Both the position numbers and the translations under genes were made by a program. From the NCBI RefSeq assembly GCF_033095945.1, contig NZ_AP026800.1, positions 744,001 to 808,000 on the forward strand: DNA of 64,000 bases. The letters are read 5' to 3'. The DNA comes from Bombiscardovia apis (lineage in GTDB: Bacteria > Actinomycetota > Actinomycetes > Actinomycetales > Bifidobacteriaceae). Under the pieces are notes generated by a model that saw only the letters and a program-made list of their open reading frames with translations, was not told where the DNA came from and ran no database searches. This document shows positions 38,078-63,967 of this stretch, in pieces. Every line of letters starts with the position of its first letter. Position 1 is the stretch's first letter.

Positions 38078-38124
38078 TTAAGGGTGCTGGGCACTGACTG
38101 TTGGAAGAGGAGCTAAGGAGTGGC

Positions 38125-40236
38125 ATGGGGTTTAATATAGAACGTACGGAAAAACCGTTCGTGGTGAAGTCACCCTACCAGCCGTCCGGTGACCAGCCTC
38201 AGGCCATCAATGAGCTGGCCAGTCGAATTGAAAACGGCGAAAACGATGTGGTGCTCATGGGTGCCACGGGTACTGGTAAAACTGCTACTACGGCTTGGAT
38301 GATTGAGAAGTTGCAGCGTCCTACGCTAATTCTGGAACCTAACAAAACGCTGGCTGCTCAGTTGTGCGCTGAATTCCGTGAGCTCATGCCCGATAATGCT
38401 GTCTCGTACTTCGTCTCCTACTACGATTACTACCAGCCTGAGGCCTATATTCCTCAGACTGATACGTATATCGAGAAGGATTCCAATATCAACGACGATG
38501 TGGAGCGTCTGCGGCACGCTGCCACTGCAAATCTCTTGACTCGCAGGGACTGTGTGGTTGTCGCCACCGTCTCCTGTATTTATGGTTTGGGTACTCCTGA
38601 GGAGTATGCGGGTCGTATGCTCTTCTTGCGTGAAGGTCAGCAGATAAGTCGAGATGAGCTCTTGCGCCAGTTTGTGAACATGCAATACAAGCGCAACGAT
38701 ATTGCTTTTACTCGTGGTACTTTCCGCGTGCGCGGAGACACAGTCGAGATTATCCCCGTATACGAGGAACTGGCTGTACGCATCGAGTTTTTTGGAGATG
38801 AAATCGACCGTATATCGACTCTCCATCCCTTAACGGGTGATGAAATAGCTCACGAGAGCGAAGTGCATATTTTCCCGGCTTCTCACTACGTGGCCGGGCC
38901 TGATCGTATGCAACGGGCTTTGAAGAGTATTAAAGAAGAGCTTGACTGGAGGGTTGGGCAGCTACGCAAGGAAGGCCATGAGCTGGAGGCCCAGCGTCTC
39001 ACTATGCGTACCACTTACGACTTGGAGATGCTCACTCAAATTGGCACCTGTTCAGGAGTTGAAAATTACTCCCGTCATTTCGATGGGCGTGAGCCAGGAA
39101 CAGCCCCGCATACGCTTCTAGACTTCTTCCCAGACGACTTTTTGCTGGTCATCGACGAGTCCCATGTGACGGTGCCTCAGATTGGTGCCATGTATGAAGG
39201 CGATGCTTCTCGTAAGCGTACCTTGGTTGAGCATGGTTTCCGTCTGCCTTCCGCTATGGATAACCGCCCGCTGAAATGGCCAGAATTCCTGAACAAGGTT
39301 GGACAGACCATATACTTGTCGGCAACTCCGGGCGATTATGAGATGGGCTTGTCTGATGGGGTAGTGGAGCAGATTATTCGCCCCACGGGCCTGCTAGACC
39401 CTCAGATTGAGGTTCGCCCAGTCAAGGGTCAGGTTGACGACCTGTTAGCAGAGATTAAGGATCGCGTGGCCAAGCACGAGCGTGTCTTGGTAACGACTCT
39501 CACTAAGAAGATGGCTGAAGACCTCACAGACTACTTGCTTGAGCGTGATATCAAGGTGGAGTATTTGCACTCAGATGTTGATACCCTGCGCCGCGTTGAG
39601 CTCTTAAGGGAACTGCGTGAGGGCAAGATAGATGTCATTGTTGGCATCAACCTCTTGCGTGAGGGCTTAGATTTGCCTGAGGTATCGTTGGTGGCCATTT
39701 TGGATGCTGATAAGGAAGGTTTCTTGCGCTCCTATCGCTCACTTATTCAGACTATTGGTCGTGCGGCTCGAAACGTATCAGGCACAGTCATCATGTATGC
39801 AGATGCGCAGACCGACTCCATGAAAAAGGCTATTGACGAGACGGACCGCCGCCGAGCTAAGCAGATTGCTTACAATAAGGAGCACGGTGTCGATCCCAAG
39901 CCACTGATTAAGAAGATTTCTGATGTCAACGATATGTTGGCCAAAGAAGACATTGACACACAGACTCTTTTGGAGGGCGGTTATCGCAATGCCGGCAAGG
40001 CTGGAAACTCACACTTGGGAGTCCCCAGTTTTGACAAGGACGAGGCTGACAAGCGTCATCAAGAGATTCTGCAGGCTGGTCTACCAGCTCAAGACTTGGC
40101 TGATTTGATTCGTCAACTTAGTGATCAGATGCATACCGCCGCTGAGCAGCTGCAATTCGAACTGGCAGCTCGCCTACGAGACGAAGTACGCGATTTGAAG
40201 AAGGAACTGCGGCAGATGGCGGAAGCCAGCAAATAG
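38125..40236 (+). CDS. uvrB: UvrABC system protein B
   Basis: The 703-residue damage-verifying helicase of nucleotide excision repair. Walker A is GATGTGKT, the beta-hairpin segment that probes damage is [13 protein letters not shown], Walker B is VIDESH, motif VI is QTIGRAARN, and the C-terminal UVR helix pair that binds UvrC is at the end. ATG 38125 is chosen over TTG 38101 because AAGGAG lies just before it. It is followed by a terminator. Confidence 0.96.
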
Positions 40237-44558: not shown

Positions 44559-47456
44559 ATGAGCGAGTCAACACATTCGACTAACACTAAGGGCCCTCTG
44601 CTGATAGTCGACGGTCACTCGTTAGCTTTCAGGGCTTATTATGCTCTGCCTGTTGATTCTTTCACAACCTCTGAAGGGCAGCCCACTAACGCTATTTGGG
44701 GCTTCGCGGTCATGCTTTCCGAGGTTATCGAAGCTGAGCATCCTTCCCACATGTGCGTGGCTTTCGACATGGCTGGCGGCACTTTCCGCAGTAAAATGTT
44801 GCCTCAATATAAGGGTACGAGAGACGCTGCTCCTGAAGACTTGATTAGTCAGTTGCCGCTCATTCAGAAGTTCTTACAGACTCTAGGCGTGAGCTATATT
44901 GAAAAAAAAGGTTACGAAGGCGACGACATTATGGCAACCCTCGCGACTCAGGGTGAGGAAGCTGGCTATCGTACGCTGGTGCTTTCTGGCGATCGTGATG
45001 CTTTCCAATTAGCAGACGACAACGTGACTGTACTTTTCCCCGGCTACCATTTCCGACAGCTCAAGCGCATGACACCGGAAGCTATTGAAGAAAAATACCA
45101 CGTTAGCCCGCAAATGTATCCTGATTTAGCTGCTCTGCGCGGTGAGCAGTCAGACAATATTCCTGGCGTTCCTGGTGTTGGCGACGCTTTTGCTGCTCGT
45201 TGGCTCAACGAATACGGCAGCCTTGAGGGCATTTTTGCTCATGCAGACGAGGTCAAGGGCAAAAAAGGCGAGGCCTTACGCGAAAGCATTGAGCAGGTAA
45301 AACTCAACCGTAAAGTCAACGCTCTGGTCTGCGATTTAGACTTGGGAGTGAACGTCGACGATCTTACCTTCGGGCACATTCACCTCGACGAAGTCACCGC
45401 CTTGTTTGACCAGCTCGAATTTGGCTCCCACACTCGCAATAAGATGTTGAAGGGCTTCAAATGCGTTGAAGACTTTGACGATCCGGCAGTTCCGGCTGAT
45501 TTCAACCAAGAAGCGGGCATGGATTTTCATGATCCTGAGCGCGATGAAATCACTGATGTGGCCTCTTTCGAAGCGTGGTGTCAGGAACACCTGCCCAGTG
45601 CCGAGCATTCTCAATCGCTAGCAGAAGCCATGCCAGATGCAGCTCCGGTTATCGAAGCAGCGGGCGATGGGGTGAAAGCGGCCCAAGCTGAGGAAGTTCA
45701 CTGCCCAGATTTAGGCAAAGAAGTGTGGTATTTGCACGCGCAAGGCCAGGCAAAGCCGGGAGATGCCAAGCTAGAAGAGCTGGTATTCTTAGCCCCTGAT
45801 GCTCACACCGTCTTAGTGCATGCCGACGATTTAGATGCTAGCATGACTGCCAGTGTGCAGGCTGTTATCGATAGCCGGGTGGGCTCATGTGTAGTTCACG
45901 GATATAAGGAACATATCCACTTGCTGGAGGCTGCCGGCCTGCGTATGCCCATGCCGCTCTTTGATACAAAACTGGCTGGATACTTGGTGGAGCCTGACTT
46001 CCACGCAGCCGACTTGGACCAGGCTTTCTCGCACTTCTTGCAGGTGCCGATGGACGAAAAACCAGAGGTTGAGCAGGGCGCGTTAGATTTCGGAGATGGT
46101 CAAGATGAGGCTGACGAGTCGCTGTCTCAAGATCAGATGTGCTTGCGTCGGGGACTCTATGTGCAGCTCTTAGCCAATCATCTTGAGCCCTTGATTATTA
46201 AGCGCAAACAGTTCAATCTGCTGCGTATTATCGAGATGCCCACCTCCACCGTGCTCGCTCAAATGGAGCGTCAGGGCGCCAAGGTAGATACCAGCCGTTT
46301 GAAAGAGATGGGTGACCAGTTTGCTGCCGAGGCCCAAGAAGCACAAGACATAGCTTGGGATAGGGCGGGAGACAAGGTCAATCTTCAAAGCCCCAAGCAG
46401 TTGCAAAAGGTACTCTTTGAAGACATGGGCTTGAAGCCTACTCAGCGCACTAAGAATGGTTCCTATTCGACTGCTGCAGCAGCCTTGCAAAAGTTGTATT
46501 TGACATCTGTCAACAATGTGCGGGCTAACGACTTCTTGGGAGCTCTCCTGCGCCACCGGGAGACCAACAAGCTCAAGCAAATTGTGAACTCGTTGATGGA
46601 TGCAGTCAATCAGCGCGATGGGCGTATTCACACCACTTTTGAGCAGACAGTAGCGGCGACAGGTCGCTTGAGTTCGGTCGAACCCAACTTGCAGAATATT
46701 CCCAACAAGAACGCTGCAGGCCGTGAAATTCGCTCAGCATTCGTGTCTGGCGACGAGTTTGAGACCCTGCTCAGCTGTGATTATTCGCAGGTTGAGCTAC
46801 GAATTATGGCTGACTTGTCTGGCGATGAGGCGCTGATCGAAGCTTTCAAGTCCGGAGCCGACTTCCACAAGTACGTGGCTTCTTTGGTCTATCAAACATC
46901 GATGGACGAGGTCACTTCCGATCAGCGTTCACACGTGAAAGCCATGAGTTACGGCTTGGCTTACGGTCTGTCGACCTACGGTTTGGCTCAGCAACTTAAT
47001 GTCAGTCCGGCTGAGGCAGACATTTTGCGTTCCCAGTATTTTTCGACCTTCGGCAAGGTTCACGAATACTTGGAGTCGTTGGTGGCCGACGCGCGTGTGA
47101 AGGGCTATACGGAGACTATCTTTGGTCGCCGCCGCTACTTCCCGGGGCTCAACTCCAAGCGTCGCCTGACCCGCGAAGCAGCCGAGCGAGCAGCATTGAA
47201 TGCCCCTATTCAGGGTTCAGCGGCCGACATCATGAAGATTGCCATGATTAAAGCACAGCACGCTCTGAGCGAGGCTGAATGCAAGAGTCATATTGTCTTG
47301 CAGATTCACGACGAATTGGTTGTAGAAATGGCTCCGGGCGAGGTGGAGCAGGTGACTACTATCGTCAAAGATGCTATGGAGCATGCTGTTGAGCTGGCAG
47401 TGCCGCTCGATGTTTCTACCGGTATCGGCTCAGACTGGCAGCAGGCAGCCCACTAA
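44559..47456 (+). CDS. polA: DNA polymerase I
   Basis: A 965-residue polymerase for Okazaki fragment processing and repair synthesis. The 5'-3' nuclease is N-terminal (LIVDGHSLAFRAYYAL, GYEGDDIMATLA, SGDRDAFQL). The proofreading domain (about 330-540) lacks the DxE metal residues and is probably inactive, as in mycobacterial Pol I. The polymerase domain has motif A DYSQVELR (near 740), a helix O region and motif C LQIHDELVVE (near 915). A run of eight A lies in the nuclease domain (44902-44909). GAGAGGGG precedes ATG 44559. Confidence 0.96.
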   Translation: MSESTHSTNTKGPLLIVDGHSLAFRAYYALPVDSFTTSEGQPTNAIWGFAVMLSEVIEAEHPSHMCVAFDMAGGTFRSKMLPQYKGTRDAAPEDLISQLPLIQKFLQTLGVSYIEKKGYEGDDIMATLATQGEEAGYRTLVLSGDRDAFQLADDNVTVLFPGYHFRQLKRMTPEAIEEKYHVSPQMYPDLAALRGEQSDNIPGVPGVGDAFAARWLNEYGSLEGIFAHADEVKGKKGEALRESIEQVKLNRKVNALVCDLDLGVNVDDLTFGHIHLDEVTALFDQLEFGSHTRNKMLKGFKCVEDFDDPAVPADFNQEAGMDFHDPERDEITDVASFEAWCQEHLPSAEHSQSLAEAMPDAAPVIEAAGDGVKAAQAEEVHCPDLGKEVWYLHAQGQAKPGDAKLEELVFLAPDAHTVLVHADDLDASMTASVQAVIDSRVGSCVVHGYKEHIHLLEAAGLRMPMPLFDTKLAGYLVEPDFHAADLDQAFSHFLQVPMDEKPEVEQGALDFGDGQDEADESLSQDQMCLRRGLYVQLLANHLEPLIIKRKQFNLLRIIEMPTSTVLAQMERQGAKVDTSRLKEMGDQFAAEAQEAQDIAWDRAGDKVNLQSPKQLQKVLFEDMGLKPTQRTKNGSYSTAAAALQKLYLTSVNNVRANDFLGALLRHRETNKLKQIVNSLMDAVNQRDGRIHTTFEQTVAATGRLSSVEPNLQNIPNKNAAGREIRSAFVSGDEFETLLSCDYSQVELRIMADLSGDEALIEAFKSGADFHKYVASLVYQTSMDEVTSDQRSHVKAMSYGLAYGLSTYGLAQQLNVSPAEADILRSQYFSTFGKVHEYLESLVADARVKGYTETIFGRRRYFPGLNSKRRLTREAAERAALNAPIQGSAADIMKIAMIKAQHALSEAECKSHIVLQIHDELVVEMAPGEVEQVTTIVKDAMEHAVELAVPLDVSTGIGSDWQQAAH

Positions 47457-49825: not shown

Positions 49826-52800
49826 TTAAGCCCGAGACAGCTTTGTATTCGCTCTTTTCTTCCGCTGTGCCACGTAGGCCGCGTAAGCGAAACTTGCGCT
49901 AAGTCCGAGCGTAAGAGCGAGGCTGGCGCTGATGCGTTGCAAGGGTATCGTTCCGGCAGCAGGTAGGGTGTAGTGGTAGGTGTAGTTCAGCGTGTAGTCA
50001 GGTTGGCTGTACCCACCTAGGCTCCAGTGAATGTTGGTATTAGTCGTACCTGCTGGGTTGGGTGCGGTGTGTGTTTGCCAGCTGTTGGTGTTGGAGTTCC
50101 ATACGGGTGTGTCGGTGTCGGTCGTGCGCATGGTGAGTCCGGTTACAGTGAGTTTTTGTAATGCGCTTGCTTCCGCCGGCTTGGGGTGGGGGTCGGCGTC
50201 ATCGTTGCCTTGCCCGAGTTTGCCGAGGGTATTGCCTCCCCAGGTGTAGGTGTGGTGGTTGCGGCTGATTGCCATTGCATGACTATCGCCCGTGCCGATG
50301 CGTTTGCATTCTGGCAGCAGCGCGCTGGCGGTGAGGTCGTTGGGGGAGTTGCTGCTGGTGATGCTGGTGTTGTCATTGCCGAGCTGGCCTTTCGCATTGT
50401 CTCCCCAAGTGTATACGTGGCCGTTATTTGCCAGTGCTGCAGAGAAGGAGCCTCCTGCGTTGATGGCGCTGATGCTGGCAGGTAGACCGCTGGCCGAAGT
50501 TAGGTCGGTGGGTGTGGGGTCGGTGCTGATGGTGTGGTTGTGGCCGAGCTGGCCGAGGTTGTTGTTGCCCCAGGTGTAGAGGTGGCCGTCGCTTGCTAGG
50601 GCGAGCGAGTGCTGGTCTCCGGCCGCGACATGGACGATGTTAGCGGGTAGTCCGCCGGCGGCGCTTATGTCGACGGGTGTGAACTGAGCATCGCTGGTTC
50701 CTAGACCTGTGGTGGTTCCTAGTTGGGCGAATTCGTTGCTACCCCAAGCGTAGACGTGACCGCTGCCGCTTACTGCTAGGGCGTGGTTGGTGCCTGCCGC
50801 CAGCTTTCGAATAGAGGAGGGTAGGCTGCCGGCGGCGCTGATATCTACGGGGTTGAGCACTGGCATGTACGTGCCGGCGTTGGTGGATATGCCCAGTTGG
50901 CCGGAAGCGTTGAATCCCCAAGCGTAGACATGCCCATTGGAGCTGACTGCGAGTGAATAGTCGGTGCCTGCGGCTACTTGAGTGATGGTTGTGGGGAGCT
51001 TGCCGAGCGCGGTGAGATCGATGGGGGTGTCTTGGGCGCTAGTATTGCCGTTGCCCAGTTGGCCGGCATTGTTGCTGCCCCAGGCGTAGACATGATGGTC
51101 GCTGCCGATGGCGAGCGAGTGGTTGGCGCCGGCGCTCACCTTGAGCGCGCGGACCGAGTCGGGCAGGTGGACCCGGCCGGGTGCGGAGTGGGGCTTATTG
51201 TCGCCGTGGCCTTGGCCCAGAACGCCTCGCTCGTTGCCGCCCCAGGAGTAAGCGTTGCCGTCGGAGCCGATGGCCAGGCTGTGAGAACTGCCGGCCGCGA
51301 CTTGGGAATACGTAATCGTACTCGGCGGGTCCGGGGCGCCGATGTTCACCAAGTCCCCGCCCTTGGAGGGGCCGTAGATGGGAGAGAGGGTGAATTTGTA
51401 TTCCTCCCAGCCTGCGGTCAGTGTCATATTGTGGTCAACGGTATCGCCGAAATCCCACGGCTCGCCCGTGTCGGTGTACCAGCCGGTGAACCAATGATGC
51501 TCCCAGGCCGGGGTGGTAGGCCAATCCAGTGTTTTGCCGCTGTCCTCCTCGATCTGTTGGTCGGGTGGGGCAGTGCCGGGCGCTCCACCTAGCTTGAACT
51601 GTACGGTGTAGAGGTCGAGGTAGTGGAGCTGGTAGGTTTCACTGGGTTGAGTACCGAGTCCGACCAGACTCCAATCCACTTTAATATCAACCGTCGTACC
51701 CGGAGTGCCAGCCGGAACTTTACCCGACCACGCATAGGTTGTAGGATTTTTTGTTCCACTGGTAGTAACACCATCGATGGTGACCTTATCAATATTGACG
51801 GCACCACCCACACGAACAGCAGAATCATAATAGGCTACAACTTTGCCATCGCCTAGTTGACCATTATCATTACGGCCCCATGCGTAAGTGTTGCCATCGC
51901 TTCCGATTGCAAAAGAACTTACGTCGCTAGCAAAAACTTTGGTGAAGGTGATTCCTGCTGGTACAGTTACCAAACTCGGAGTTGTTGCAGCGTACATATA
52001 GTTTCCTGAGGGGAATCCGGCTATGCCTAGAGCTCCCCACCAGTTTTGGCCCCATGTGTAGACTTTGCCATCGCTGCCGATAGCGAGAGTGTGCCAGCCG
52101 CCACGAGCCATGCTTTTAATGGTTACTCCTGCCGGCATGCTTACGTTCACGGCTACTGGTGACACGTACTGTCCGGTGGTTGAACTGGTGGTCAGCGTGC
52201 CGTCTCCGATTTGGCCCCATTGTGTAGCGCCCCATAGGTAGGTTTTGCCGTTGCTGGCTGTTGCGTAGTCTGTCCAATTGCCGGATACTATGCTAGTAAA
52301 ACGGTATCCTGCTGGAGGGTTGATAGCCCTAGCCGTGGCGCTGTATCCTCTAATGCCTCCGTTTGCCATCTGCCCATGGTAGTTGCTGCCCCACACGTAG
52401 ACAACGCCGTTATCTCCCAAAGCCATTGATGCAAGATATGGAGCTTGGAGGCTGGTGATACGCACTCCGCTCGGTATGCCAACAACAGGAGTTGGGCGTA
52501 GCCGCATAGCTGTATCGCCCACGCCGAGCTGACCGTTGCCAGTAGGCTCTCCAAAATCCCAACCGTTGAAAAAGTCATCGTTGTTGCCCCAAGCGTAGAC
52601 TCTTCCGTCATCTCCAATGGCTTGGCTATAAGCGTCAGCCGCGTTGACATGGGTGAATTTATTCACTCCAGCTGGAGGTGGCACAAGAGTGGGGAGGGAA
52701 CGGTTGGTGGTATCTCCCAAGCCGAGTTGGCCTTTGTCATTGCGACCCCATGCGTAGACATTACCTTTGTCATCTAAAGCTAGGGAATGCTGATCATAAC

Positions 52801-53170
52801 CGGCGCTCACTTCAACGAATTTCGTGTTTGCTGGCATGGTGATTGGTGCAGGTTTGAGATGCGCGGTGGTGCTACCATCGCCCAGCTGACCAAAGGAATT
52901 GTCTCCCCAAGAGTAAGCTTTACTATCACTATCGAGTGCGACTGTGTGATAGTGCTTGGAATCCAAAGTTGTGAATGTTATTCCAGCCAATGTCTGAGGC
53001 GTGATAGTAAGGTCGCTGCCGCCTGTTGCAGATGCTCTTCTTGGGTCGACGCGGAAGTGGGGTGACGCGGGGTCAGCGTGTGCAGTTTGGGCTAGTTGAA
53101 TAGCCCCCCCCCCAAGGACAATCAGCGCTAGCGCCAAAATGATGGTGCTAGCAGTACGAATGCGGCGCAT
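49826..53170 (-). CDS. RCC1-repeat surface protein A, phase-variable, ON (G10)
   Basis: A 1114-residue secreted protein in frame as sequenced. The signal peptide is residues 1-33 (basic MRRIR, hydrophobic core, cleavage expected after AHA). The Gly20-Gly22 codons and the first base of codon 23 form a run of ten G (53104-53113 on the plus strand). Seven RCC1 repeats (motif YsWG-x-Nxx-GQLGnG) follow, then a TIG-like linker, an InlB/Flg_new-type domain (HHWFTGWYTDTGEPWDF, about 520-590), seven more RCC1 repeats, and a cell-wall sorting signal: LPAAG at 1069, a hydrophobic stretch and a basic tail. AAAGGGG precedes ATG. The ligand is unknown; seven RCC1 repeats normally close one beta-propeller, which can bind proteins or glycans. 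Confidence 0.9.
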   Translation of the reverse strand: MRRIRTASTIILALALIVLGGGAIQLAQTAHADPASPHFRVDPRRASATGGSDLTITPQTLAGITFTTLDSKHYHTVALDSDSKAYSWGDNSFGQLGDGSTTAHLKPAPITMPANTKFVEVSAGYDQHSLALDDKGNVYAWGRNDKGQLGLGDTTNRSLPTLVPPPAGVNKFTHVNAADAYSQAIGDDGRVYAWGNNDDFFNGWDFGEPTGNGQLGVGDTAMRLRPTPVVGIPSGVRITSLQAPYLASMALGDNGVVYVWGSNYHGQMANGGIRGYSATARAINPPAGYRFTSIVSGNWTDYATASNGKTYLWGATQWGQIGDGTLTTSSTTGQYVSPVAVNVSMPAGVTIKSMARGGWHTLAIGSDGKVYTWGQNWWGALGIAGFPSGNYMYAATTPSLVTVPAGITFTKVFASDVSSFAIGSDGNTYAWGRNDNGQLGDGKVVAYYDSAVRVGGAVNIDKVTIDGVTTSGTKNPTTYAWSGKVPAGTPGTTVDIKVDWSLVGLGTQPSETYQLHYLDLYTVQFKLGGAPGTAPPDQQIEEDSGKTLDWPTTPAWEHHWFTGWYTDTGEPWDFGDTVDHNMTLTAGWEEYKFTLSPIYGPSKGGDLVNIGAPDPPSTITYSQVAAGSSHSLAIGSDGNAYSWGGNERGVLGQGHGDNKPHSAPGRVHLPDSVRALKVSAGANHSLAIGSDHHVYAWGSNNAGQLGNGNTSAQDTPIDLTALGKLPTTITQVAAGTDYSLAVSSNGHVYAWGFNASGQLGISTNAGTYMPVLNPVDISAAGSLPSSIRKLAAGTNHALAVSGSGHVYAWGSNEFAQLGTTTGLGTSDAQFTPVDISAAGGLPANIVHVAAGDQHSLALASDGHLYTWGNNNLGQLGHNHTISTDPTPTDLTSASGLPASISAINAGGSFSAALANNGHVYTWGDNAKGQLGNDNTSITSSNSPNDLTASALLPECKRIGTGDSHAMAISRNHHTYTWGGNTLGKLGQGNDDADPHPKPAEASALQKLTVTGLTMRTTDTDTPVWNSNTNSWQTHTAPNPAGTTNTNIHWSLGGYSQPDYTLNYTYHYTLPAAGTIPLQRISASLALTLGLSASFAYAAYVAQRKKRANTKLSRA
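51541..51753. repeat. Near-identical block shared by genes A and D (copy in A)
   Basis: This part of the linker and InlB-type domain of A matches about 62240-62452 in D with roughly ten differences by eye over 213 bases, far closer than the flanking RCC1 repeats. The copies are direct repeats about 10.7 kb apart. Confidence 0.8.
53104..53113 (-). repeat. Poly-G tract of gene A, 10 units (ON)
   Basis: C10 on the plus strand, G10 on the coding strand. It joins ...ATT GTC CTT to GCT ATT CAA in frame, so translation continues into the mature protein. A change of one or two units would end translation shortly after. Confidence 0.95.
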
Positions 53171-53182
53171 GTGTTTCCCCTT

Positions 53183-53215
53183 TAGTGTGACAACAACTGT
53201 AGAATTGTCACACTA
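53183..53215 (-). promoter_or_regulatory. Hairpin in the 5' leader of gene A
   Basis: TAGTGTGACAA (53183-53193) and TTGTCACACTA (53205-53215) pair perfectly over 11 bp with an 11-base loop. On the mRNA the 3' arm ends next to the AAAGGGG ribosome-binding site, so the structure could modulate translation or be a protein-binding dyad. The same structure stands before gene D. Confidence 0.75.
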
Positions 53216-53283
53216 GTGTTTCTTGAGTTGCATCTGATCCCCATCAAACACAACAATCATATATTTCTTACAAGTCTCACATC

Positions 53284-53293
53284 AGTATAGCAA
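53284..53293 (-). promoter_or_regulatory. Extended -10 promoter of gene A
   Basis: TTGCTATACT on the coding strand (extended -10 TGCTATACT). The identical decamer stands before all four RCC1 genes, 95-120 bases from each start. No conserved -35 is seen. Confidence 0.7.
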
Positions 53294-53375
53294 AGCGTTG
53301 AGCAAGCTTCATAAGTGTTGGCTGATTGCGGTTTGTAAAGTTACTGATTTGTGGGGCTGTGATAGTAGTTGACTG

Positions 53376-56300
53376 TTACCTTTTTCGTCCTTGTACTCGT
53401 TGTTTGATGTTGTGTGCTGTGTAGGCGAGGCTGGTGCTGATTCCTAGTGTGAGGGCGAGGGTGGCGGCGGCTCGTTGGGGCTGCGCGCTGCCGGCTTGGG
53501 GAAGGTTATAGGTGTAAATGTATGGCAGGGGGTAGTCGGGTTGGTTGTAGGTGCCTAGTGTCCAGTGAATAGTGCTGGTGGTGGGCCCGGGATTGTGGGC
53601 CGTGCTGTGGGTGGTCCAGGCGTGTTGGCTGCTGTTCCAGACAGGGGTGTTGGTGTCTGTGGCGTCGATAGTGAAGCCGGTGACATTCAGCGTTTGTTTC
53701 GCGTTGGCGATGGCTGGCTGGGGGTGTGGGTTGGTGTCGCTGGTGCCTTGGCCGAGTTGGCCGTGATTGTTGGCGCCCCAACTGTAGATGTGGTTGGTGT
53801 CTGTGAGTGCTGCTGCGTGGTGGCTGCCGGTGCTGATAGCACTGAGCGGGGGTAGGGAAGTGTTGGCGCTGATGTTAGTAGGTTGGTTGCTGTCGGTAAG
53901 GGTGTTGTTACCAAGTGTGCCGTTATTGTTGGCTCCCCATGTGTAGGCTTGCTGGCTGCTGGTCAGAGCTATGGAGTACTGGTTGCCGGCTTGTACTTGA
54001 TTGATAGTTGCGGGGAGTAGGCTGCGAGCGGTGAGATCAACCGGTGTAGGCCCTCCTGACTGTGTGGGGTCTCCTAACTGACCACGAGCATTCGAACCCC
54101 ACGAATAGGTGTGGTGGTTGTTGGCTAGGGCTAGGTTATGGTCTTGGCCAGCGCTGATTTGACTGATGGTATCGGTGAGGAGGTTGAAGTCAGCGAGGTC
54201 TACTGGGATGGGTTGGGCGGTAGTGCTGCCCAGTTGATTACTGGTACCTAATTGTCCTGCTTGATTCGTGCCCCATGACAAGACGTGGTGGTCAGAGGTC
54301 AGGGCTAGAGCGTGGTTAGGACCGGCGCTGATAGCGACCACGGTATCGGGTAGGTTTCGTTTGGTGGTGATGTCAGTAGGAGTGGGATTAGGAGTGGCTG
54401 TGCCTGCGTTGGTAGTGGTAGCGAGCGTGCCTGTGGTGTTGTTACCCCAAGTGTAGGTGTGCCCGTCTTGGGTTAAAGCCAAGCTGTATTGATCGCCAGC
54501 TGCTATAGCAATGATGGTAGAGGGCAGGGTGCCAGCAGCCGTGAGATCGACTGGACTACTCGCGCCAGTAGTGCTGCCGTTACCTAACTGTCCGCATGTG
54601 TTACTGCCCCAAGCGTAGACGTGGTGGTCACTGCCTAAGGCGAGAGCGTGGGTGTTACCAGCGCTGACTTGTAAGGCTTTGACTTGCTCGGGTAAATGCA
54701 CGCGTACCGGCTGGATGCTGGAAGGAGTAGCGGAACCAGTGCCGAGCTGGCCTTCATTATTAACACCCCACGCATATGCATTGCCATCAGAGCCGATGGC
54801 TAGTGTGTAATCCAATCCAGTTGAAAGAGCGGTGTAGGTCAGTGCTTGTGGTGGTGCAGGCGGGTTAATGCTTAACGCAGTGTCTCCAGAGGAAGGACCA
54901 CCTGCAGGAGTAAGAGTAAATTGGTATGGTTCCCAACCCGCGGTGAGTGTCATATCAGACTCGACACCATCCGCGAAATTCCATACCTGGCCTGTGCTGG
55001 TGTACCAGCCCGTGAACCAGTGCCCGTCCCAGACAGGGGTCTGGGGCCATGCTATCGCGTCTTCGGTCAAGACTTGTTGGTCTGGTATCGTGCCGGGAGC
55101 GCCACCGGTATCGAAGTGAATGGTATGCGTGGTCATATACGTGTAATGGAAAATAATTGGCGGCTGTTCGGAGAAGCCGTTGCTCCAGGTAATCGTCACC
55201 TCAACACGACCAGCCGGGTGAGCAGGCACCGTCACCGTCCACGCACCATCAGCACCAACCGTATGAGAAGGCACTGCTATCCCGTCAAACGCCACGCCAG
55301 TAATACTCGCTTTCGGAGGTTCCGGACGAGCTGGGGTAGAGCAGATTCCGTTGATACTAGTAACATTGGGGTCGCCTAGCTGTCCGGCTACTATGCTGCC
55401 CCAAGAGTATGCTTCAACGCCTTTTGCTACAGATAGGGAGAAGTTTCCTCCTGCACTTATTTGGGTCATGTTTGGGTTTACTCCACCTGCGTTGTAAATG
55501 GGAGATGGGGTGGTGTAAGGGAACGCTGAATAGCCGGTGCCGAGTTGTCCGTTACTGTTATCGCCCCAGCAATACACATAATGATTGTTTCCTAAGAGCA
55601 TGGAGTGTGCCGCACCAGCACTGACTTGCAAGACTTTACCTGCGGAAACGCCCGTTGGTACTGCTGAATCGGGATGAGACCACATGGAACCATTGCCTAA
55701 TTGATAACTTCCGTTGCTTCCCCAAGCATAGGCATAATCGTTTGTTCCCACAGCGAGGGCGTGGGAGCCTCCAGCGCTGACTTGTTTGAAATTGACACCA
55801 GCTGGCATGTTGCCTTGTAATACGGCTACCGGGGCATCTTGATTAGTGCCATTCCCAATGCCGAGTCGTCCGCTGCCCCCGAAACCCCATGAGTAGGCGC
55901 GCTGGTCGCTTCCAAGAGCAAGAGTGAAGTTGCTTCCACCGCTGATTTGCGTCAGGCTTACGCTGGCTGGTATGGCTCCTTGGGCTGCGGCTACTGGTTC
56001 GTATTGGTTGGCGTGTGTAGGGTCGTTGTTACCGAGTTGTCCGTATTGGTTGTTGCCCCATGCGTAAGCTTTACCATCGCTGCCAATAGCGAGAGAGTGG
56101 CCATCTCCGGCAGCTATGTGCACGATGCGAACTCCGTCTGGTATAGCTCCGCGATTGACCAATGCTGGGGTTTTCTGCAAAGCTCCGCTAGTATCCCCGT
56201 TACCGAGCTGCCCCTTATCGTTGACACCCCATGCGTATATTTTGCCGCTACTAGCTAAGGCCATAGAGTGGTTATATCCAGACACGACCTCTGTGATTTT

Positions 56301-56664
56301 TATACCACGGGGGAGCTCAGCTAATACCGGAGCCCTAGATCCCCATTGGCCATAGATATATGAACCCCACCAATACACTCCACCATTTTCATTCAGACCA
56401 GTTCCATGAGTGGACCCTGCACTTACTTGAGCGAAAGGGATTTCGTTCTGTGGTTTGGTGACACGGGCAGTGTTGCCGCCTGAAACGGGGCCGTGGGTTG
56501 GGGTGAGGGAGAAACCATTGCTGGAATCAGAGCCGGGTGGGCGTGCTCCTATGCGTAGTCCGGGGTCAGCGTGTGCTGGTTGGGCTAGTTGAGTAGCCCC
56601 CCCCCCCAAGGACAGTTATAGCTAGTGCTACTACAACGGCGCTGGCAGAACTGAAGCGGCTCAT
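53376..56664 (-). CDS. RCC1-repeat surface protein B, phase-variable, OFF (G11)
   Basis: From ATG 56664 (AAAGGGG upstream) the frame runs through a signal peptide (MSRFSSAS...) into eleven G and ends at TGA after 32 residues. Removing one G restores 1095 codons to the stop at 53376, with cleavage expected after AHA. The rest is intact: a GPVSGGN TIG-like start, seven RCC1 repeats, an InlB/Flg_new-type domain (HWFTGWYTSTGQVWNF), seven further repeats, then LPQAG, a hydrophobic helix and a basic tail. TTG 56609, made by the tract itself, could start the mature frame but has no binding site and would lack a signal peptide. Intact downstream sequence argues for a switched-off gene rather than a decayed one. 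Confidence 0.87.
56597..56607 (-). repeat. Poly-G tract of gene B, 11 units (OFF)
   Basis: C11 on the plus strand in the signal-peptide codons, at residue 20 onward as in gene A. One unit more than gene A, it shifts to a frame that stops 27 bases after the tract. Confidence 0.93.
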
Positions 56665-56763
56665 GAGTTACCCCTTTAATCAATACATATAGTGCTCAAA
56701 CTGTTGGCTGTGAGCGTTCTTTCCCCTGACGCTGCAAGCACATGTCTGCCACAAGTAGTTGTC

Positions 56764-56773
56764 AGTATAGCAA
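56764..56773 (-). promoter_or_regulatory. Extended -10 promoter of gene B
   Basis: TTGCTATACT on the coding strand, identical to the element of gene A, about 100 bases before ATG 56664. Confidence 0.7.
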
Positions 56774-56875
56774 AACACTCTGTCGGCTTCACACGCGGGC
56801 GGGATTATATGGCTCTGCTTAGCGTTGTGCTCATACGAGTTGCCCGCCACGCATGCTAAAGCCGCAGTATTTTGA

Positions 56876-59800
56876 CTATGAGTCCTTGTTCCTGTGAAGC
56901 TGTTTCTTCGATTGACGAAGTTTGGTGGATGCGTAAGCAAGGCTCATGCTGGCAACGAGCGTGAACACTAAGCCTGCGCTCATACGCTGAAGAGGTATAG
57001 AACCTGCACTGGGCAGCGTGTAGTGGTATGTATATGGCAAGATGTAATCGGGCTGTTCGTAGCTTCCTAAGGTCCAGTGGACGGCACTATCGACTGGACC
57101 CGGCGGGTTGGGAACGCTAGTAGTTGACCAAACATTTCGTGAGCTATTCCAAATGGGGTCAATTGGTACTCTAGTTGAACCCATAGTGAGGCCGATAACA
57201 GTTAACACTTGCTGAGTAGTGACTGCTGCTGGTTGAGAGTGCTTACTACTGTCCAAGTTGCCTCGCCCCAGCTGTCCTGAATCATTCGCGCCCCAAGTGT
57301 ACGTTTCTGCATTAGTTGTCGTAGCAGCAACATGGTCGAAGCCGCTGCTCAATGTTCGTACATCAGCGAATTGCCCTGCAGTGGTAATGTCATTGGGTTG
57401 GTTGGTATCGGTTAGGTTAGCGTTACCTAGTGTGCCGTCGCCGTTTGCGCCCCAAGTGTAGGTGTGCTGGTTACTAGTAAGCGCGACGGAGTACTGGTTG
57501 CTGGCTTGAATTTGGACAACTGTGTTGGGGAGGAGACTTTTGGCAGTCAAATCTACTGGCTGTGGTCCTCCAGCTTGCGTCGGGTCGCCGAGCTGACCGC
57601 GAGTATTTGACCCCCAAGCGTAGACGTGCCCATCATTCGTTAAGGCGAGGCTGTGCTGGTTTCCGGCGCTGACTTGGATGATTTTTCCTTGGGGGAGTGC
57701 GCCTTGGTCGGTTATGTCTACTGGTATGGGCTGAGCGTTGCTATTGCCTAGATTCGTGCTTGTAGCGAGTTGCCCTTGCGCGTTGGTTCCCCAAGAAAGC
57801 ACGTGGTTATTGCTCGTTACAGCAAGAGCGTGGTCGTAGCCGGAGCCTAGACCCACAACAGTTTCAGGTAGGCGACCGGCAGCCGTGATGTCTACCGGAT
57901 TCGGATTCGGCGTGTTAGAGCCCGCGTTGCTTGCAATAGTGAGGCTACCTGAAGCATTGCTTCCCCAAGCCCATGTGTGCCCGTCTTGGGTCAAAGCTAA
58001 GGAATATTGGTTACCTGCGAGTACCTCTATCACGTTGTTGGGGAGTTTATTGCTTGCAGTTAAGTCAACAGGAATCTTACTGTCTGCAGTATTTCCATTG
58101 CCTAGTTGGCCTGCGTTATTCGCCCCCCAAGCATACACATGATGATCCGAGCCAATTGCCAAAGCGTGTTGATTGCCATTGCTAACTTGAAGGATTTTGA
58201 CTCCTTCCGGTAGGTGGACGCGGTGAGGCTGTCCGGAGGCGAAAGTATCTGCTTCGTCAATACCGAGGGCGCCATGTTCGTTGCTGCCCCAAGCGTAGAG
58301 ATTTCCATCTGAGCCAATTGCAAGCGTGGATTGTTTTCCCGCAGCAAGGTCAGCGTAAGTGATGCTTTGAGGCGGGGCAGGAGTTTTGATGTCAATAGAA
58401 GCTCCACCCGAAGAGGGGCCACTGCTAGGGATTAAAGAGAAATCATAGGCTTCCCAACGGGCAGTTAAGGTCATATTGCTAGACACTCCGTCTGCAAAAT
58501 CCCAAGGCTGGCCTGCATCGGTAAACCAGCCAATAAACCAGTGTTTATCCCAAGTAGGAGTTTCAGGCCAAGCTATCGGATCACCAGAGGTAACCGATTG
58601 CGCAATAGGCGCAGATCCCGGAGCCCCGCCATTGTTGAATTGCACAGAAAAGATGCTGAGATACTCATAGTGAAGAACGATAGGCAGCTGGTTGGCATTG
58701 CCATTACTCCAGTACACTTTGACATCTACTTTACCCGGGGCATGTGGAGGAACAACCACTTGCCAGTTGTCTGCAGCGTCCGTGGTGTGTGAAAGGACAG
58801 GTGTGTTATCGAAACTCACACCAGTTATGAGCACGGTAATAGGGATTGCTCTCACCGGCGAGCATTGTGTAGGATTAGGAGCTGCCGTGGCCAAATTTCC
58901 GTGAAAGTTAGTGCCCCAGCTGTCGAAGTTATCTTCGCTGGTGCTCAAGCTAATCGCTGTATCTTTACCGGCACTCACATACGACACATCTGAAATGGTC
59001 CAGACTTGGCCGGGGTTGGCGGTGGTTCCCATCGGAGTTGAGCTTCGACCCAATTGACCCTGCCTGCCATCACCCCACGAGTAGGCTTTATGGTCTGTAC
59101 CGATGGCCAGTCCTAGTCCGTAACCGGCGCTCACTTGAAGGACAGGGCCCAAGCCTACTACTCGACCGGGGAGAGCTTGATTCACACGGCCCGAAGGGTT
59201 GTTGTCACCGTTGCCGAGTTGTCCATCTATATTCCAACCCCACGAGTAAGCCAAGTGATCTGAGCCTATGGCCAGGATGAAACCATCGCCAGCACTGACT
59301 TCCGTCAGATAGACGCCGGCCGGTATGTCTCCTTGATGGATAGGCTGTGGTGTTGTCTGATAAGGGCCGGTCCAGTTGCCGTTGGGTGCTATCGTGCCAT
59401 TGCCCAGCTGTCCGGCGCCATTGACTCCCCAAGCGTAGGTCCTATGGTCTGAGCCGATAGCGAGGGAATAACCGTTGCCAGCGCTGACCTGCGTTATCTC
59501 TACAGTGGCAGGTATCGCGCCCAAGTGAACTTCTACTGGTGAAAACTCTTGAGTGAGGACGGGCGGATCGTTGCCCAATTGTCCGTAAAAATTAACGCCC
59601 CAAGCATACATTTTGTGGTTAGAGCCCAAAGCTATAGAGTGATTCTCTCCTGCAGAAATCTGTATGATTTTAACATCGGCCGGGATTTCTCCTCGGCTGA
59701 TAGGTGCTGGTAGGGGATTGGTCGCACCGCTGGTGTCGCCGTTACCTAACTGGCCCACTTCGTTGTAACCCCACGAATAAACCTGTCCGTTGTCTGCTAG

Positions 59801-60230
59801 AGCTAAGGAAAACTTCCGATCCGTACTGATCTGAGTAAAACGCACACCAGTCGGTGTCTTCACTCGTACCGGTTTCCATTGGTCAGCTGTATCGCCGTTG
59901 CCTAAGGCGCCATCACTGTTCATACCCCAGCTGTATATACCGCCATCAACACCAAGTGCAAGTCCGTGATAGTGCCCCATTTCAATTTGCACAAAACGGC
60001 TGTTGGCAGGCGGCTTTGTCACATAAGCTTTGTTATTGCCTGTTTCGGGCCCATGCGTGGGGGAAAGAGTTACACCGTCTACAGTTTCTGATCCGGGCGC
60101 TCGCGAAGAGCCGCGCCTACTGCTGAGCGGGTCAGCGCTGGCGGGCTGAACAAATTGGGTAGCCCCCCCCCCCAAGGATTATCAGAGCTAGGACCGCTGC
60201 TATAGCGTTGGCGGTGCGGAGTCTGCGCAT
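56876..60230 (-). CDS. RCC1-repeat surface protein C, phase-variable, OFF (G11)
   Basis: From ATG 60230 (AGAGGT upstream) the frame encodes MRRLRTAN..., enters eleven G, and stops after 32 residues. With ten G it would give 1117 residues to the stop at 56876, with cleavage expected after ASA. The downstream frame is unbroken: TIG-like GPETGNN start, seven RCC1 repeats, linker, InlB/Flg_new-type domain (KHWFIGWFTDAGQPWDF), seven repeats, and LPSAG with a hydrophobic helix and basic tail. It is the most divergent of the four in its signal peptide and 5' leader. Confidence 0.87.
60163..60173 (-). repeat. Poly-G tract of gene C, 11 units (OFF)
   Basis: C11 on the plus strand at codons 20-23 of the signal peptide, the same place as in the other three genes. 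Confidence 0.93.
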
Positions 60231-60346
60231 GCGAGTACCTCTTGTGTGGAACAGCGCTGTGAGCGCCTTTCATTAAGCCTTGCAGCGTGTAAAGAGATTC
60301 CCCAACCAGATACACCAAGACTATATTTTTCAACAAATATTCCACC

Positions 60347-60356
60347 AGTATAGCAA
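60347..60356 (-). promoter_or_regulatory. Extended -10 promoter of gene C
   Basis: TTGCTATACT on the coding strand, about 117 bases before ATG 60230. The leader contains GCGCTCACAGCGC, a short dyad. Confidence 0.7.
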
Positions 60357-60416
60357 GCACAGTTAGGTTTTGCTTACTTATACATAAGATTGCTGGGCAC
60401 AGTGGTCAAAATAATC

Positions 60417-60462
60417 TAGACAACTGAGCTGGATGTAACGGGGGAAATAGCTCAGTTGTCTA
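60417..60462 (-). terminator. Terminator of gene D
   Basis: AGCTCAGTTGTCTA and TAGACAACTGAGCT pair perfectly over 14 bp. On the minus strand the hairpin is followed by TTATTTTG. It lies 51 bases after the gene D stop and before the gene C promoter, so the RCC1 genes are probably separate transcripts. Confidence 0.8.
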
Positions 60463-60512
60463 GTTATAGGAGGCTTCATTGCCTCGGGGTGGTGACGGGG
60501 GGCAAGCCGCTT

Positions 60513-63500
60513 TTAATGCTGCTGGTTTGCGAGTATGTGGGCTTTGTTGTCTCTCTTCCTGCGATGGATCATGTTTGCTGTAAAGGCGAGGCTGGCGCTG
60601 AGTGTGAGTGTGAGGGCGAGGCTGCCGCTGATGCGTTGGAGTGGTATTGTTCCGGCGCTGGGTAGTGTGTAGTGGTAGGTGAAGGGGTGTAGGTAGTTGG
60701 GTTGGTCATAGGTTCCTAGCTTCCAGTGGATGGTGCTGGTGGTTTGGCCCGGATTACCGGCTGGGCTGGTGGCTTGCCAAGTGTTACTGGCGGTGTCCCA
60801 ATGGGGTGTGTCTGGTGTGTTTGTGGTGCCTATGGTGAGCGCTGTGACAGTGAGAGCTTGTGTGGCCTGGGCTTGTGTGGGCTGGCTGTGCTGATTGGTG
60901 TCGCTGCTGCCTTGTCCGAGTTGGCCTGCTGTGTTGGCTCCCCAACTGTAAACTTGCCTGCTGTTGGTGATCGCGCTTGTGTGGTTGCGCCCGGCTGTGA
61001 TATGGGTCATGGCTGGTAAAGCGTTGATGGTGGTGATGTCGAGTGGTCTGGTGGCTTGTGACACGTTCGTATTGTTGTTGCCGAGTTGGCCGCTAGTATT
61101 GATTCCCCAAGTGTGTACGTGTCCGCTCGTGCTGAGCGCTATGGAAGTGTGCTCTCCTGCTGCGAGTTGGCTAATGCTAGAGGGGAGAAAACCGGCTGCG
61201 CTGATATCCGTGGGTGTGCTGCGACTGGTGGTGGTACCGTCTCCTAACTGGCCGTGCTGGTTATCGCCCCATGAGTACGTGTGCTGGTCTTGGCTCAGGG
61301 CTAGTGAGTGAGTGCTACCAGCCGTAACCTGTGTAATGGTAGCGGGTAAGGCTCCTACGGTAGTGAGGTCAACAGGACTGGGTTGCGCGGTATCAGTGCC
61401 GAGACTGGTACTGGTACCGAGCTGACCATACTCGTTAGCTCCCCACGAATAGGTGTGATGTTCGTTACTGACGGCTAGGGCGTGGTGGCTGCCAGCACTG
61501 ATAGAACGAATCGTGGTAGGTAAACTACCAGCAGCGCTCACATCAGTGGGCAGGCTATTAGGATTAGTGGTGCCAGCGTTAATGGTAGTGGCGAGAGTGC
61601 CGTATTGGTTGGATCCCCATGTGTAGAGGTGGCCATCACGAGTAAGCGCTAGTGAATAATCATCACCGGCTGCCAATTGCATAATGGTAGAGGGTAGGCG
61701 AGCGGTGTTGGTTAGGTCGATGGGAGTGTTCTGGTCTGTACTAGTACCGTCTCCTACTTGTCCTTGAGCATTTGCTCCCCATGCGTAGACGTGGTGGTCG
61801 CTGCCTAAAGCGAGTGCGTGTGAACTACCGGCTGCTACTTGTAAGACGCGTACCGTATCGGGTAGGTGCACGCGTGAAGGCGAAGGATGGGCTTGCCTGT
61901 CTGCGCTACCCGAGCCGAGCCTGCCGTGTTGGTTGGAGCCCCACGAGTATGCGTTGCCATCAGAGCCGATCGCTAGCGTGTAATCCTGGCCCGCGGACAG
62001 TGATGAATAGGTGATAGTGTGCGGCGCGACTGGAGCAGACACTGATAAGCTCACGCCGCCCTGGGAAGGACTGTGAGCTGGGTAAAGCTTAAACGCATAC
62101 TTTTCCCAACCCGCAGTCAAAGTCATACTCGAAGTAACTGGTTGAGAAAAATCCCACGGCTCGCCCGTATCGGTGTACCATCCAGTGAACCAGTGATGCT
62201 CCCAGGCTGGGGTAGTGGGCCAGTCCAACAGCTTCCCACTGTCTTCCTCGACTTGCTGGTCGGGCGGGGCAGTGCCGGGCGCTCCACCTAGCTTGAACTG
62301 TACGGTGTAAAGGTCGAGGTAGTAGAGCTGGTAGGTTTCACTGGGTTGAGCACCGAGTCCGACCAGACTCCAATCCACTTTAATATCAACCGTCGTACCC
62401 GGAGTACCAGCCGGAACTTTACCCGACCACGCATAGGTTGTAGGGTTGGAAGTTCCGGTGGCTGTGGTTGTACCGACAGTGACTTTATCAATGCTGATAG
62501 CGCCTCCGACTCGCACAGGCGCATCCCGGTATGCAACCACGGTGCCGTCGCCTAATTGCCCATATTGATTTTGTCCCCATCCGTATAGGTTCCCATCGTT
62601 GCCGATTGCATAGGAATTCCAGTACCCGGAAAACACTTTTATGAAGGTAATACCTTGGGGCACGGAAACAGGGTAGGGAGCATTGCTCCATGATTGAAAG
62701 CCAACTACTGCTCCAGCAAGTCCTAAACCTCCCCAAGCATTTTGGCCCCAGCTGTAGGTTTTCTTATCGCTGCCAATAGCGATGGCGTGCCAGCCTCCTT
62801 GAGCCATACTTTCAATACTCACACCCGCAGGCATTCGACGAGAAATAACTATAGGGGAGAGCATGTCACCAAAGGGCGTATTGTTGCTGCCCGAGCCGTC
62901 TCCAAAAGTGCCCCATTGTGAAGCTCCCCAAGCGTACGTTGAACCATTACTGGCAATGGCGGTAGAGAAATTACCGCCGGTGGAGATTGATGTCCAGCGT
63001 TGGCCTGCGGGTGGGTTGACGGGCAGTGCAGTGGCGCTGTTGTATCGGTTACCGTTCGCAAGCTGCCCGTGAACATTGTTGCCCCAGGTGTAGATGACGC
63101 CGTTGTTGCCTAGGGCGGTGGATGTCATGTATAGGGCGCTGATGCTGGTGATTTTCACGGTTGCCGGTATGCCGACGACTGCTGTGGGCCGGGTTCTGGC
63201 TGTGGTGTCTCCCACGCCGAGCTGGCCTCCGCCTTGGTGCTCGAGCTCGTCGCTGTTGTTATTGTTGCCCCAGCTGTAGGCTTTGCCGTCATCTCCTATG
63301 GCTAGGCAGTAGTCTCCTGCTGCGGTTGCGGTGATGAATTTGTTGACGCCTGCGGGTGGGGTTACTTTTGTGGGGGTGTTTCTGTTGGTGGTGTCGCCTA
63401 GGCCGAGTTGGCCTTTGTCGTTGCGGCCCCAGGTGTAGAGGTTGCCTTGGTCGTCGAGGGCTAGGGAGTGTGGGTAGTATCCGGTTGATACTTTAACGAT

Positions 63501-63852
63501 GTTGGCGCTTGTGGGGAAGGTGATGGGTACTGGTTTGAGTCGGCTGGTGGTTGTGCCGTCGCCGAGTTCGCCGTAGGTGTTGTCTCCCCATGAGTAGACG
63601 TTGTGTTTTGAGTCGATGGCCAAGCTGTGGTAGTACTTGGAGTCCATATCGATGAAGGTGACACCTGCCAAAGTGAATGGGGTGATGGTGAGGTCGCTGC
63701 CGCCTGAAGGTGAGGCTTTGCGTGGTTTGACGCGGAAGTGGGGTGACGCGGGGTCAGCGTGTGCGGTTTGGGCTAGTTGAGTAGCCCCCCCCCCCAAGGA
63801 CAGTTAGAGCTAGCGCTAAAATGATGGTGCTAGCAATACGAATGCGGCGCAT
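60513..63852 (-). CDS. RCC1-repeat surface protein D, phase-variable, OFF (G11)
   Basis: From ATG 63852 (AAAGGGG upstream) the frame MRRIRIAS... enters eleven G and stops after 32 residues. With ten G it gives 1112 residues to the stop at 60513. Otherwise intact: cleavage site AHA, seven RCC1 repeats, linker, InlB/Flg_new-type domain nearly identical to that of A, seven repeats, and LPSAG followed by a hydrophobic helix and basic tail. The leader, signal peptide and central linker closely match gene A at the DNA level, so A and D are recent copies or exchange sequence. Confidence 0.87.
62240..62452. repeat. Near-identical block shared by genes A and D (copy in D)
   Basis: This copy, in gene D, covers the end of the first TIG-like linker and the start of the InlB/Flg_new-type domain. 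Most of the roughly ten differences from the A copy look silent. The boundaries are by eye. Confidence 0.8.
63785..63795 (-). repeat. Poly-G tract of gene D, 11 units (OFF)
   Basis: C11 on the plus strand at codons 20-23. The flanking sequence is almost identical to gene A, which has ten units. Confidence 0.93.
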
Positions 63853-63897: not shown

Positions 63898-63967
63898 GTG
63901 TTTCTAGAGTTGTATCCGATTCCCCAACGGCTACAACAACCCTTCTATTGTTTGTAAGTATTACACC

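Follow-up and report, generated by a model that had tools for sequence, protein, structure and literature searches.

Four tandem RCC1 genes with a G-tract in the signal peptide

We analyzed a window of 64,000 nucleotides (positions 744001-808000) of the genome of Bombiscardovia apis, a single contig of 1,937,113 bases (hereafter G000). The window contains four tandem genes on the minus strand, which we name A to D, encoding RCC1 surface-type proteins and carrying a long run of G at the same codons of the signal peptide. Gene A (49826..53170) has a G10 tract (C10 on the plus strand) at 53104..53113 and is in frame, encoding a protein of 1114 amino acids (aa). Genes B (53376..56664), C (56876..60230), and D (60513..63852) have G11 tracts (C11 on the plus strand) at 56597..56607, 60163..60173, and 63785..63795, respectively, and are out of frame as assembled, with products of 32 residues. 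Here and in the rest of the text, tract lengths are taken from genome assemblies. Each tract begins 57 nucleotides (nt) past the ATG, which is located at 53170 in A, 56664 in B, 60230 in C, and 63852 in D. The distance between the ATG and the stop of the long frame is 3289 bases in B, 3355 in C, and 3340 in D, all of the form 3n+1, i.e., divisible by three once one base is removed. The long downstream frame of B is open to 53376. These results agree with a preliminary description made from the sequence of the window, including its statement that there is no other long single-base run: the remaining runs of at least 7 bases are one A7 and one A8. Two further G runs lie just beyond the edge of the window, at 811807 (in another RCC1 gene) and 815604 (non-coding).

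The tracts include three consecutive GGG codons at the same place in the four genes. GGG is otherwise uncommon, its share of the glycine codons being 12.0% across 24 other open reading frames (ORFs) in the window and 6.1% across the bodies of the four RCC1 genes. The tract is thus maintained rather than drifting. The proteins have diverged, with identities to protein A of 43% for B, 44% for C, and 61% for D. The 5' regions of genes A and D are almost identical. The annotated proteins of genes B and D (the latter being P0002) begin after the tract.

The proteins have two predicted RCC1 propellers and a putative cell-wall anchor

All four proteins match RCC1 (PF00415, PF25390) over the curated cut-off of Pfam, with a Flg_new domain between two RCC1 halves. 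The protein of gene A is composed of a signal peptide, the RCC1-Flg_new-RCC1 region, and a C-terminus with LPAAG, a hydrophobic helix, and a basic tail. The C-termini of A to D share this organization (LPxAG, helix, tail), and when checked against the LPXTG sortase substrates they have the helix and the tail, the motif being mostly LPxAG rather than LPxTG. The AlphaFold2 model of protein A has a mean predicted local distance difference test score (pLDDT) of 87.3 and a predicted template modeling score (pTM) of 0.62, with residues 1-35 below a pLDDT of 50. Its top match in Foldseek is UVR8 (4dnv_A, E 4.8e-34), with one propeller aligned. Sequence searches with gene A also name UVR8, HERC2, RPGR, and RCC1, and an NCBIfam profile search of this gene returned 0 families. 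The proposal of proteins with a double RCC1 propeller is supported by the sequence, with Pfam repeats on either side of Flg_new, and the propeller fold is recovered with AlphaFold2 and Foldseek. The resemblance to the propellers of UVR8 and RCC1 (PDB 4dnv, 1a12) is in the RCC1-repeat fold. Unlike them, the proteins described here would be secreted, are doubled, have Flg_new in between and a putative C-terminal anchor, and have no tie to photoreception or Ran exchange.

The tract genes are spread over the chromosome

We examined the sequence stretches around all runs of at least nine G in G000, of which there are 80. Other genomes have between 8 and 103 such runs (24 relatives of the same genus) or between 0 and 9 (14 genomes of other families of the same order). 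Half of those of G000 (40/80) are G10 or G11 tracts located 56-62 nt after a start codon and leading into a long frame: 23 are at 56 nt, 15 at 57, one at 62, and one at 59 (with a TTG start). A local system of four genes, as initially described, is thus too narrow, since around 44 tract genes occur chromosome-wide when four poly-C genes (see below) are included. Likewise, the sixteen surface combinations proposed for the locus become nominally 2^44, if all genes were to switch freely.

The 40 genes include 29 of the RCC1 type (28 in one BLAST group and gene 562273, which matches PF00415), 10 that form a second BLAST group, and one that has Flg_new alone. The count of RCC1 genes is a minimum, since the search with PF00415 scored 150 of 497 candidates. 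In the second group, leucine-rich repeats and Flg_new were found in all five genes given to Pfam. As assembled, nine of the 40 genes are in frame and 31 are out of frame. Among the 39 genes starting with ATG, the 8 with G10 are all in frame, while only one of the 31 with G11 is so. Of the 30 ATG genes that are out of frame, 26 are shifted by one base and four by two, and the products of these 30 genes have 23-44 residues; the 40th gene (470350, TTG start) is also out of frame. The long downstream frames of the out-of-frame copies are largely open, and the nine in-frame genes are scattered along the chromosome.

Four genes on the opposite strand have a poly-C run in a signal-peptide-like region (242216, 246585, 384168, and 729204). 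All are out of frame as assembled, their start codons being uncertain. Gene 246585 is an RCC1 gene of 1775 codons. Genes 384168 and 729204 lie around 7 kilobases (kb) from sortases at 390849 and 735985 and may be part of pilus clusters; their frames, incomplete in the stretches fetched, gave no Pfam domain. Three RCC1 genes have no run. One, at 593.7-596 kb, has the same upstream motif as the tract genes, and the two others are copies at 842 and 865 kb. The latter are found in a block of around 9.2 kb that is present twice, at ~829.5-844.5 kb and 858.5-868 kb (identity of 99.7% across 4793 aligned columns and of 98.5% across 4454). Near the tractless RCC1 gene of each copy, a poly-C faces a poly-G across around 12 bases (C10/G10 in one, C8/G11 in the other), forming an inverted homopolymer pair. 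Outside the signal-peptide class there are 25 runs of at least ten G, some of which, e.g., 815604 and 863149, directly precede boxes resembling TATGAT or TATAAA and could be tracts of promoter spacers. A C11 at 1765984, also outside this class, is far from the start of a leucine-rich-repeat-like frame and is in frame as assembled.

We regard it as highly probable, given the sequences, that the 40 surface-type genes are switched on and off independently by the gain or loss of one G through replication slippage, i.e., that they undergo phase variation. A slip of one G in the signal-peptide run would toggle the frame of each gene. In frame, the protein would be exported by Sec, anchored by sortase, and displayed, either with two RCC1 propellers around Flg_new or with leucine-rich repeats and Flg_new. 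Out of frame, translation would end after 23-44 residues. The preliminary description had proposed slipped-strand phase variation from the slippage-type tracts and from the one in-frame and three out-of-frame copies, and this part stands; it missed the leucine-rich-repeat class, the hairpin shared by the upstream regions, and the way the tracts are oriented with respect to replication.

A promoter-like box and a putative hairpin precede most of the genes

To describe the upstream regions, we pooled 39 genes of G000 and 28 of a sister genome (G017). A promoter-like box of the TGnTAnAnT type is found upstream of 57 of these 67 genes, compared with 10.7% in shuffled DNA. The motif GGTTGGGGAA is upstream of 25 of the 39 genes of G000 and 17 of the 28 of G017 (34 and 27 with relaxed forms). 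In its exact form, the motif has 39 occurrences in G000 and 38 in G017, against 5 and 7 for the reversed pattern. It is not enriched in two further relatives of the same genus, G006 (8 vs 11) and G023 (7 vs 10). In G000, at 176550-177060, an upstream GGTTGGGGAACC motif precedes a G10 run that lacks the usual leader and may be what is left of a deleted switch gene.

The upstream element that we propose here is a hairpin with a GGGG loop and compensatory changes in the stem. It could be aligned in 64 of the 67 regions, the other three having no GGGG-like pattern and being dropped. The rows of the alignment were picked by such patterns, which accounts in part for the fixed loop and its closing U-A pairs but not for the outer stem. 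Seven of the eight stem pairs are changed on both sides. The covariation of the stem is 0.342, compared with 0.202 (standard deviation 0.020) in shuffles, and none of 500 shuffles reached this value. The proportion of paired cells is 72.1% in the best register (slide 0) vs 49.8 and 49.6% one column off. In the window, the hairpins are on the minus strand at 53219..53262 (gene A, with the variant stem TGAT/ATCA), 56703..56746 (gene B, divergent), 60280..60323 (gene C), and 63902..63945 (gene D). At the gathering score of Rfam, the window matches two tRNAs only, none at the hairpin, and a known RNA family was thus set aside. The box and the hairpin, the latter in the presumed 5' untranslated region, would allow the set to be expressed together and then thinned cell by cell by the tracts. 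One might guess that the hairpin is read by an RNA-level regulator or an mRNA stabilizer common to the set.

Out-of-frame genes appear to be maintained

Out-of-frame copies could also be a silent archive for gene conversion, or plain pseudogenes, in which case the tract would be incidental. The tandem array in the window, the near-identity of the 5' regions of A and D, and the extra breaks found in four genes fit such a scenario. Yet, the genes have their own promoter-like box (at the frequency given above), a Shine-Dalgarno-like site, and a start, and the in-frame genes are dispersed rather than grouped. Furthermore, the ratio of nonsynonymous to synonymous substitution rates (dN/dS) is well under 1. 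It ranges from 0.167 to 0.421 in the 13 computable pairs, out of 14 pairs of gene bodies of G000 with at least 50% identity, and from 0.185 to 0.233 in the four pairs where both members are out of frame; poorly aligned stretches were left out, which biases these values downwards. Judging from these ratios, the out-of-frame bodies look maintained, and we find the archive or pseudogene explanation extremely improbable. We found no MutS (PF00488) in G000, while it is present in 11 of 14 control genomes. This fits, without proving, a high rate of slippage.

Comparison with the sister genome and other relatives

The sister genome has 28 such genes, of which 26 have G10, one G11, and one G12, and 20 are in frame. 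We identified 11 reciprocal-best pairs between these and the 39 genes of G000. In the seven closest pairs (bodies 58-90% identical, leader DNA 71-98%), the gene of G000 has G11 and is out of frame, and that of G017 has G10 and is in frame. Three more pairs are in frame in both genomes (two G10/G10 and one G11 vs G10), and the last one, with 25% identity, is G11 and out of frame in both. Tract length thus differs in 8 of the 11 pairs, and the frame flips in seven. This is either a true change of length between species or an effect of assembly.

G-tracts are prone to sequencing errors, as indicated by Penno et al. 2022 (PMC9187656). Some or all of the G10/G11 differences might then be homopolymer errors, with the genes perhaps all in one state, and the nearly uniform G10 of G017 goes in this direction. 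Against this, both lengths are found side by side in one assembly at near-identical sequence, and a constant offset in length would merely swap which genes read in frame. Above all, diverged paralogues retain the run at the same codons, yet three RCC1 genes lack it. We thus consider an assembly artefact very unlikely.

To assess how widespread the cassette is, we searched its pattern at the 56-nt distance in 27 genomes of the genus. It is found 23 times in G000, 22 in G017, 8 in G006 (six with the typical leader), and 6 in G023, and 0 or 1 times in each of the other 23 genomes (reversed-pattern controls gave 0-3). A genus-wide system is therefore rejected, the cassette being abundant in just four of the 27 genomes and the exact motif enriched in two. 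In G023 (1.8 Mb), an identical leader with a G run is present in four copies, at 1539, 57959, 927995, and 1190958, which indicates that the 5' cassette has recently been duplicated or has undergone gene conversion. A scan of the contigs of other genomes, in which records close to the genome of the window may be left out, revealed a sole bifidobacterial locus, from the honeybee species B. polysaccharolyticum (31% identity). At this RCC1 locus, the single one examined, there is no G or C run of at least 7 and the signal peptide differs. Its relative P0067 ends in LPLTG, whereas the proteins of the window have LPxAG. From this distribution, the switch appears to be an addition to RCC1 genes within one branch.

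The G-run is always on the nascent lagging strand

With DnaA encoded at base 793 of G000 and a reversal of the GC skew somewhere between 893 and 990 kb, we place the origin close to base 1 and the terminus around the middle of the chromosome. The terminus was set solely by the GC skew of the stretches examined, from which those at 343 kb and 1182 kb deviate. In this frame, all 40 poly-G genes are head-on to the replication fork and all four poly-C genes are co-directional. Hence, the G-run is on the nascent lagging strand in 44 of 44 genes. Among 141 other ORFs of at least 250 aa, obtained with a simple ORF caller in stretches picked around the tracts and in the window, 53 are head-on (40/40 vs 53/141, Fisher p 1.5e-14, which is no true probability since the genes are paralogous). 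In G017, where the origin was placed from the first ORF, which we take by eye to be DnaA-like, and the terminus was assumed to be mid-chromosome, 27 of the 28 genes of the class are head-on; the exception, 243246 (G12), lacks the typical leader. As for other functions in the window, Mfd-like (Pfam, 4006-7545), UvrB (38101-40236), and DNA polymerase I (44559-47456) are all encoded on the leading strand. The window also has an FtsK/EssC-like ATPase at 15797-17779 on the minus strand, with matches to NCBIfam type VII secretion profiles under the curated cut-offs.

The letter of the run, G or C, changes with the direction of the gene while the polarity relative to the fork stays the same, which makes DNA replication, and not transcription or translation, the probable step of slippage. 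Under transcriptional slippage or ribosomal frameshifting, out-of-frame genes would give some full-length protein without any change in DNA. Long G-runs can slip in transcription, a title on stem-loop-mediated transcriptional slippage is cited in PMC9187656, and such slippage could coexist with that of replication. Still, the four co-directional genes have poly-C on the sense strand, which keeps fork polarity constant and RNA sequence not, and both length and frame differ between G000 and G017. We therefore regard this explanation by transcriptional slippage or ribosomal frameshifting as very improbable.

The polarity itself could be a mere inheritance from a few ancestors, through tandem duplication and origin-symmetric inversions, with no role in switching. 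The genes are indeed paralogous and partly clustered, and one of the six cassettes of G023 does not look head-on, unlike the other five (origin assumed at base 1). On the other hand, the ATG-class genes of G000 form 21 separate clusters, more than 20 kb apart, on both replichores, and the polarity of the G-run is kept in the four poly-C genes even though these differ in type and orientation. The non-coding runs have no clear bias (16 vs 9 for at least ten G and 4 vs 7 for G9). We give this explanation of the polarity slightly less than an even chance. A broader hypothesis is that of a replication-oriented phasome in a bee-associated commensal lineage, in which around 44 surface genes share the cassette (promoter box, GGGG-loop hairpin, and signal peptide with the G10/G11 run), polarity is kept because it sets the rate of slippage, and the hairpin lets a common factor tune the whole set. 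It is a tentative and rather doubtful proposal.

Several points weigh against phase variation by slippage, or against parts of the scheme. Annotated G-tract lengths can be wrong, according to PMC9187656, and the sequencing platform may explain in part the G10 in 26 of the 28 genes of G017. A second break is present downstream in at least four out-of-frame genes (562273, 565877, 696470, and 1522798), and some copies are therefore decaying. RNAalifold gave no consensus structure for the upstream element. Concerning polarity, one of the five poly-C candidates of G017 has the opposite one (4/5 keep it), and the pilus tracts of B. breve in Table 1 of PMC9187656 also appear to have it, as we read their coordinates with the origin assumed at base 1. 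The polarity is thus at most a trait of this lineage and no rule of the genus, and the orientation could be inherited via duplication and symmetric inversions instead of selected.

Relation to known systems and significance

The closest known system is the ON/OFF switching of sortase-dependent pili by G-tracts in Bifidobacterium breve UCC2003, described by Penno et al. 2022 (PMC9187656), which supports the parallel initially drawn with this genus. In both cases, within the same bacterial family, a G9-G13 tract near the 5' end stands between the Sec signal and the rest of a cell-wall protein, and a one-base change joins the frames. The B. breve pili have one or two clusters per genome, with their own sortase, in a species of the human gut. 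Here, there are 40-44 genes per genome, mostly for RCC1 and leucine-rich-repeat proteins. They share a hairpin upstream, and their G-run is on the nascent lagging strand in every case. There is also no adjacent sortase: none of the 8 genomic sortase matches is inside the window, the nearest (735985) being around 8 kb before its start, and we discarded the idea that the window is a sortase-pilus cluster.

The preliminary description considered the paired propellers to be possibly undescribed. In fact, surface proteins with RCC1 and Flg_new had already been reported from honeybee bifidobacteria by Bottacini et al. 2012 (PMC3447821) and Ellegaard et al. 2015 (PMC4449606). They resemble ours in being encoded by tandem diversifying genes, in having RCC1 beside the Listeria-Bacteroides (Flg_new) domain, and in their cell-wall anchor, with 7-24 copies per genome (10 in B. 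actinocoloniiforme). Neither paper gave a hit for homopolymers or phase variation. What may be undescribed is their switching, since our search of the literature, with subscription journals and preprints outside its reach, returned no paper on phase variation of RCC1 surface proteins.

In the phasomes of Campylobacter, Neisseria, and Helicobacter, many homopolymeric tracts switch surface genes independently. In contrast, the system proposed here has one standard position in the signal peptide, 40 genes, and two main families, and it occurs in a Gram-positive relative of bee symbionts. Hence, the mechanism is of a known kind, and what is new is its scale, the single standard position, the two families of repeat proteins, the shared hairpin, and the polarity relative to replication.

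The seven closest G000/G017 pairs provide ready targets for measuring switching, and the polarity would allow a direct test of whether the direction of the fork tunes slippage. If our interpretation is true, annotations of such genomes miss or truncate many of the genes with an out-of-frame tract. One clone could then show very many different surfaces, and a harmless gut symbiont would have a number of switching genes comparable to that of the phasomes of known pathogens, built by repeating one module. It would also offer a test bed for why symbionts vary their surfaces in hosts without antibody-based immunity, be it because of phages, niche, or competition.

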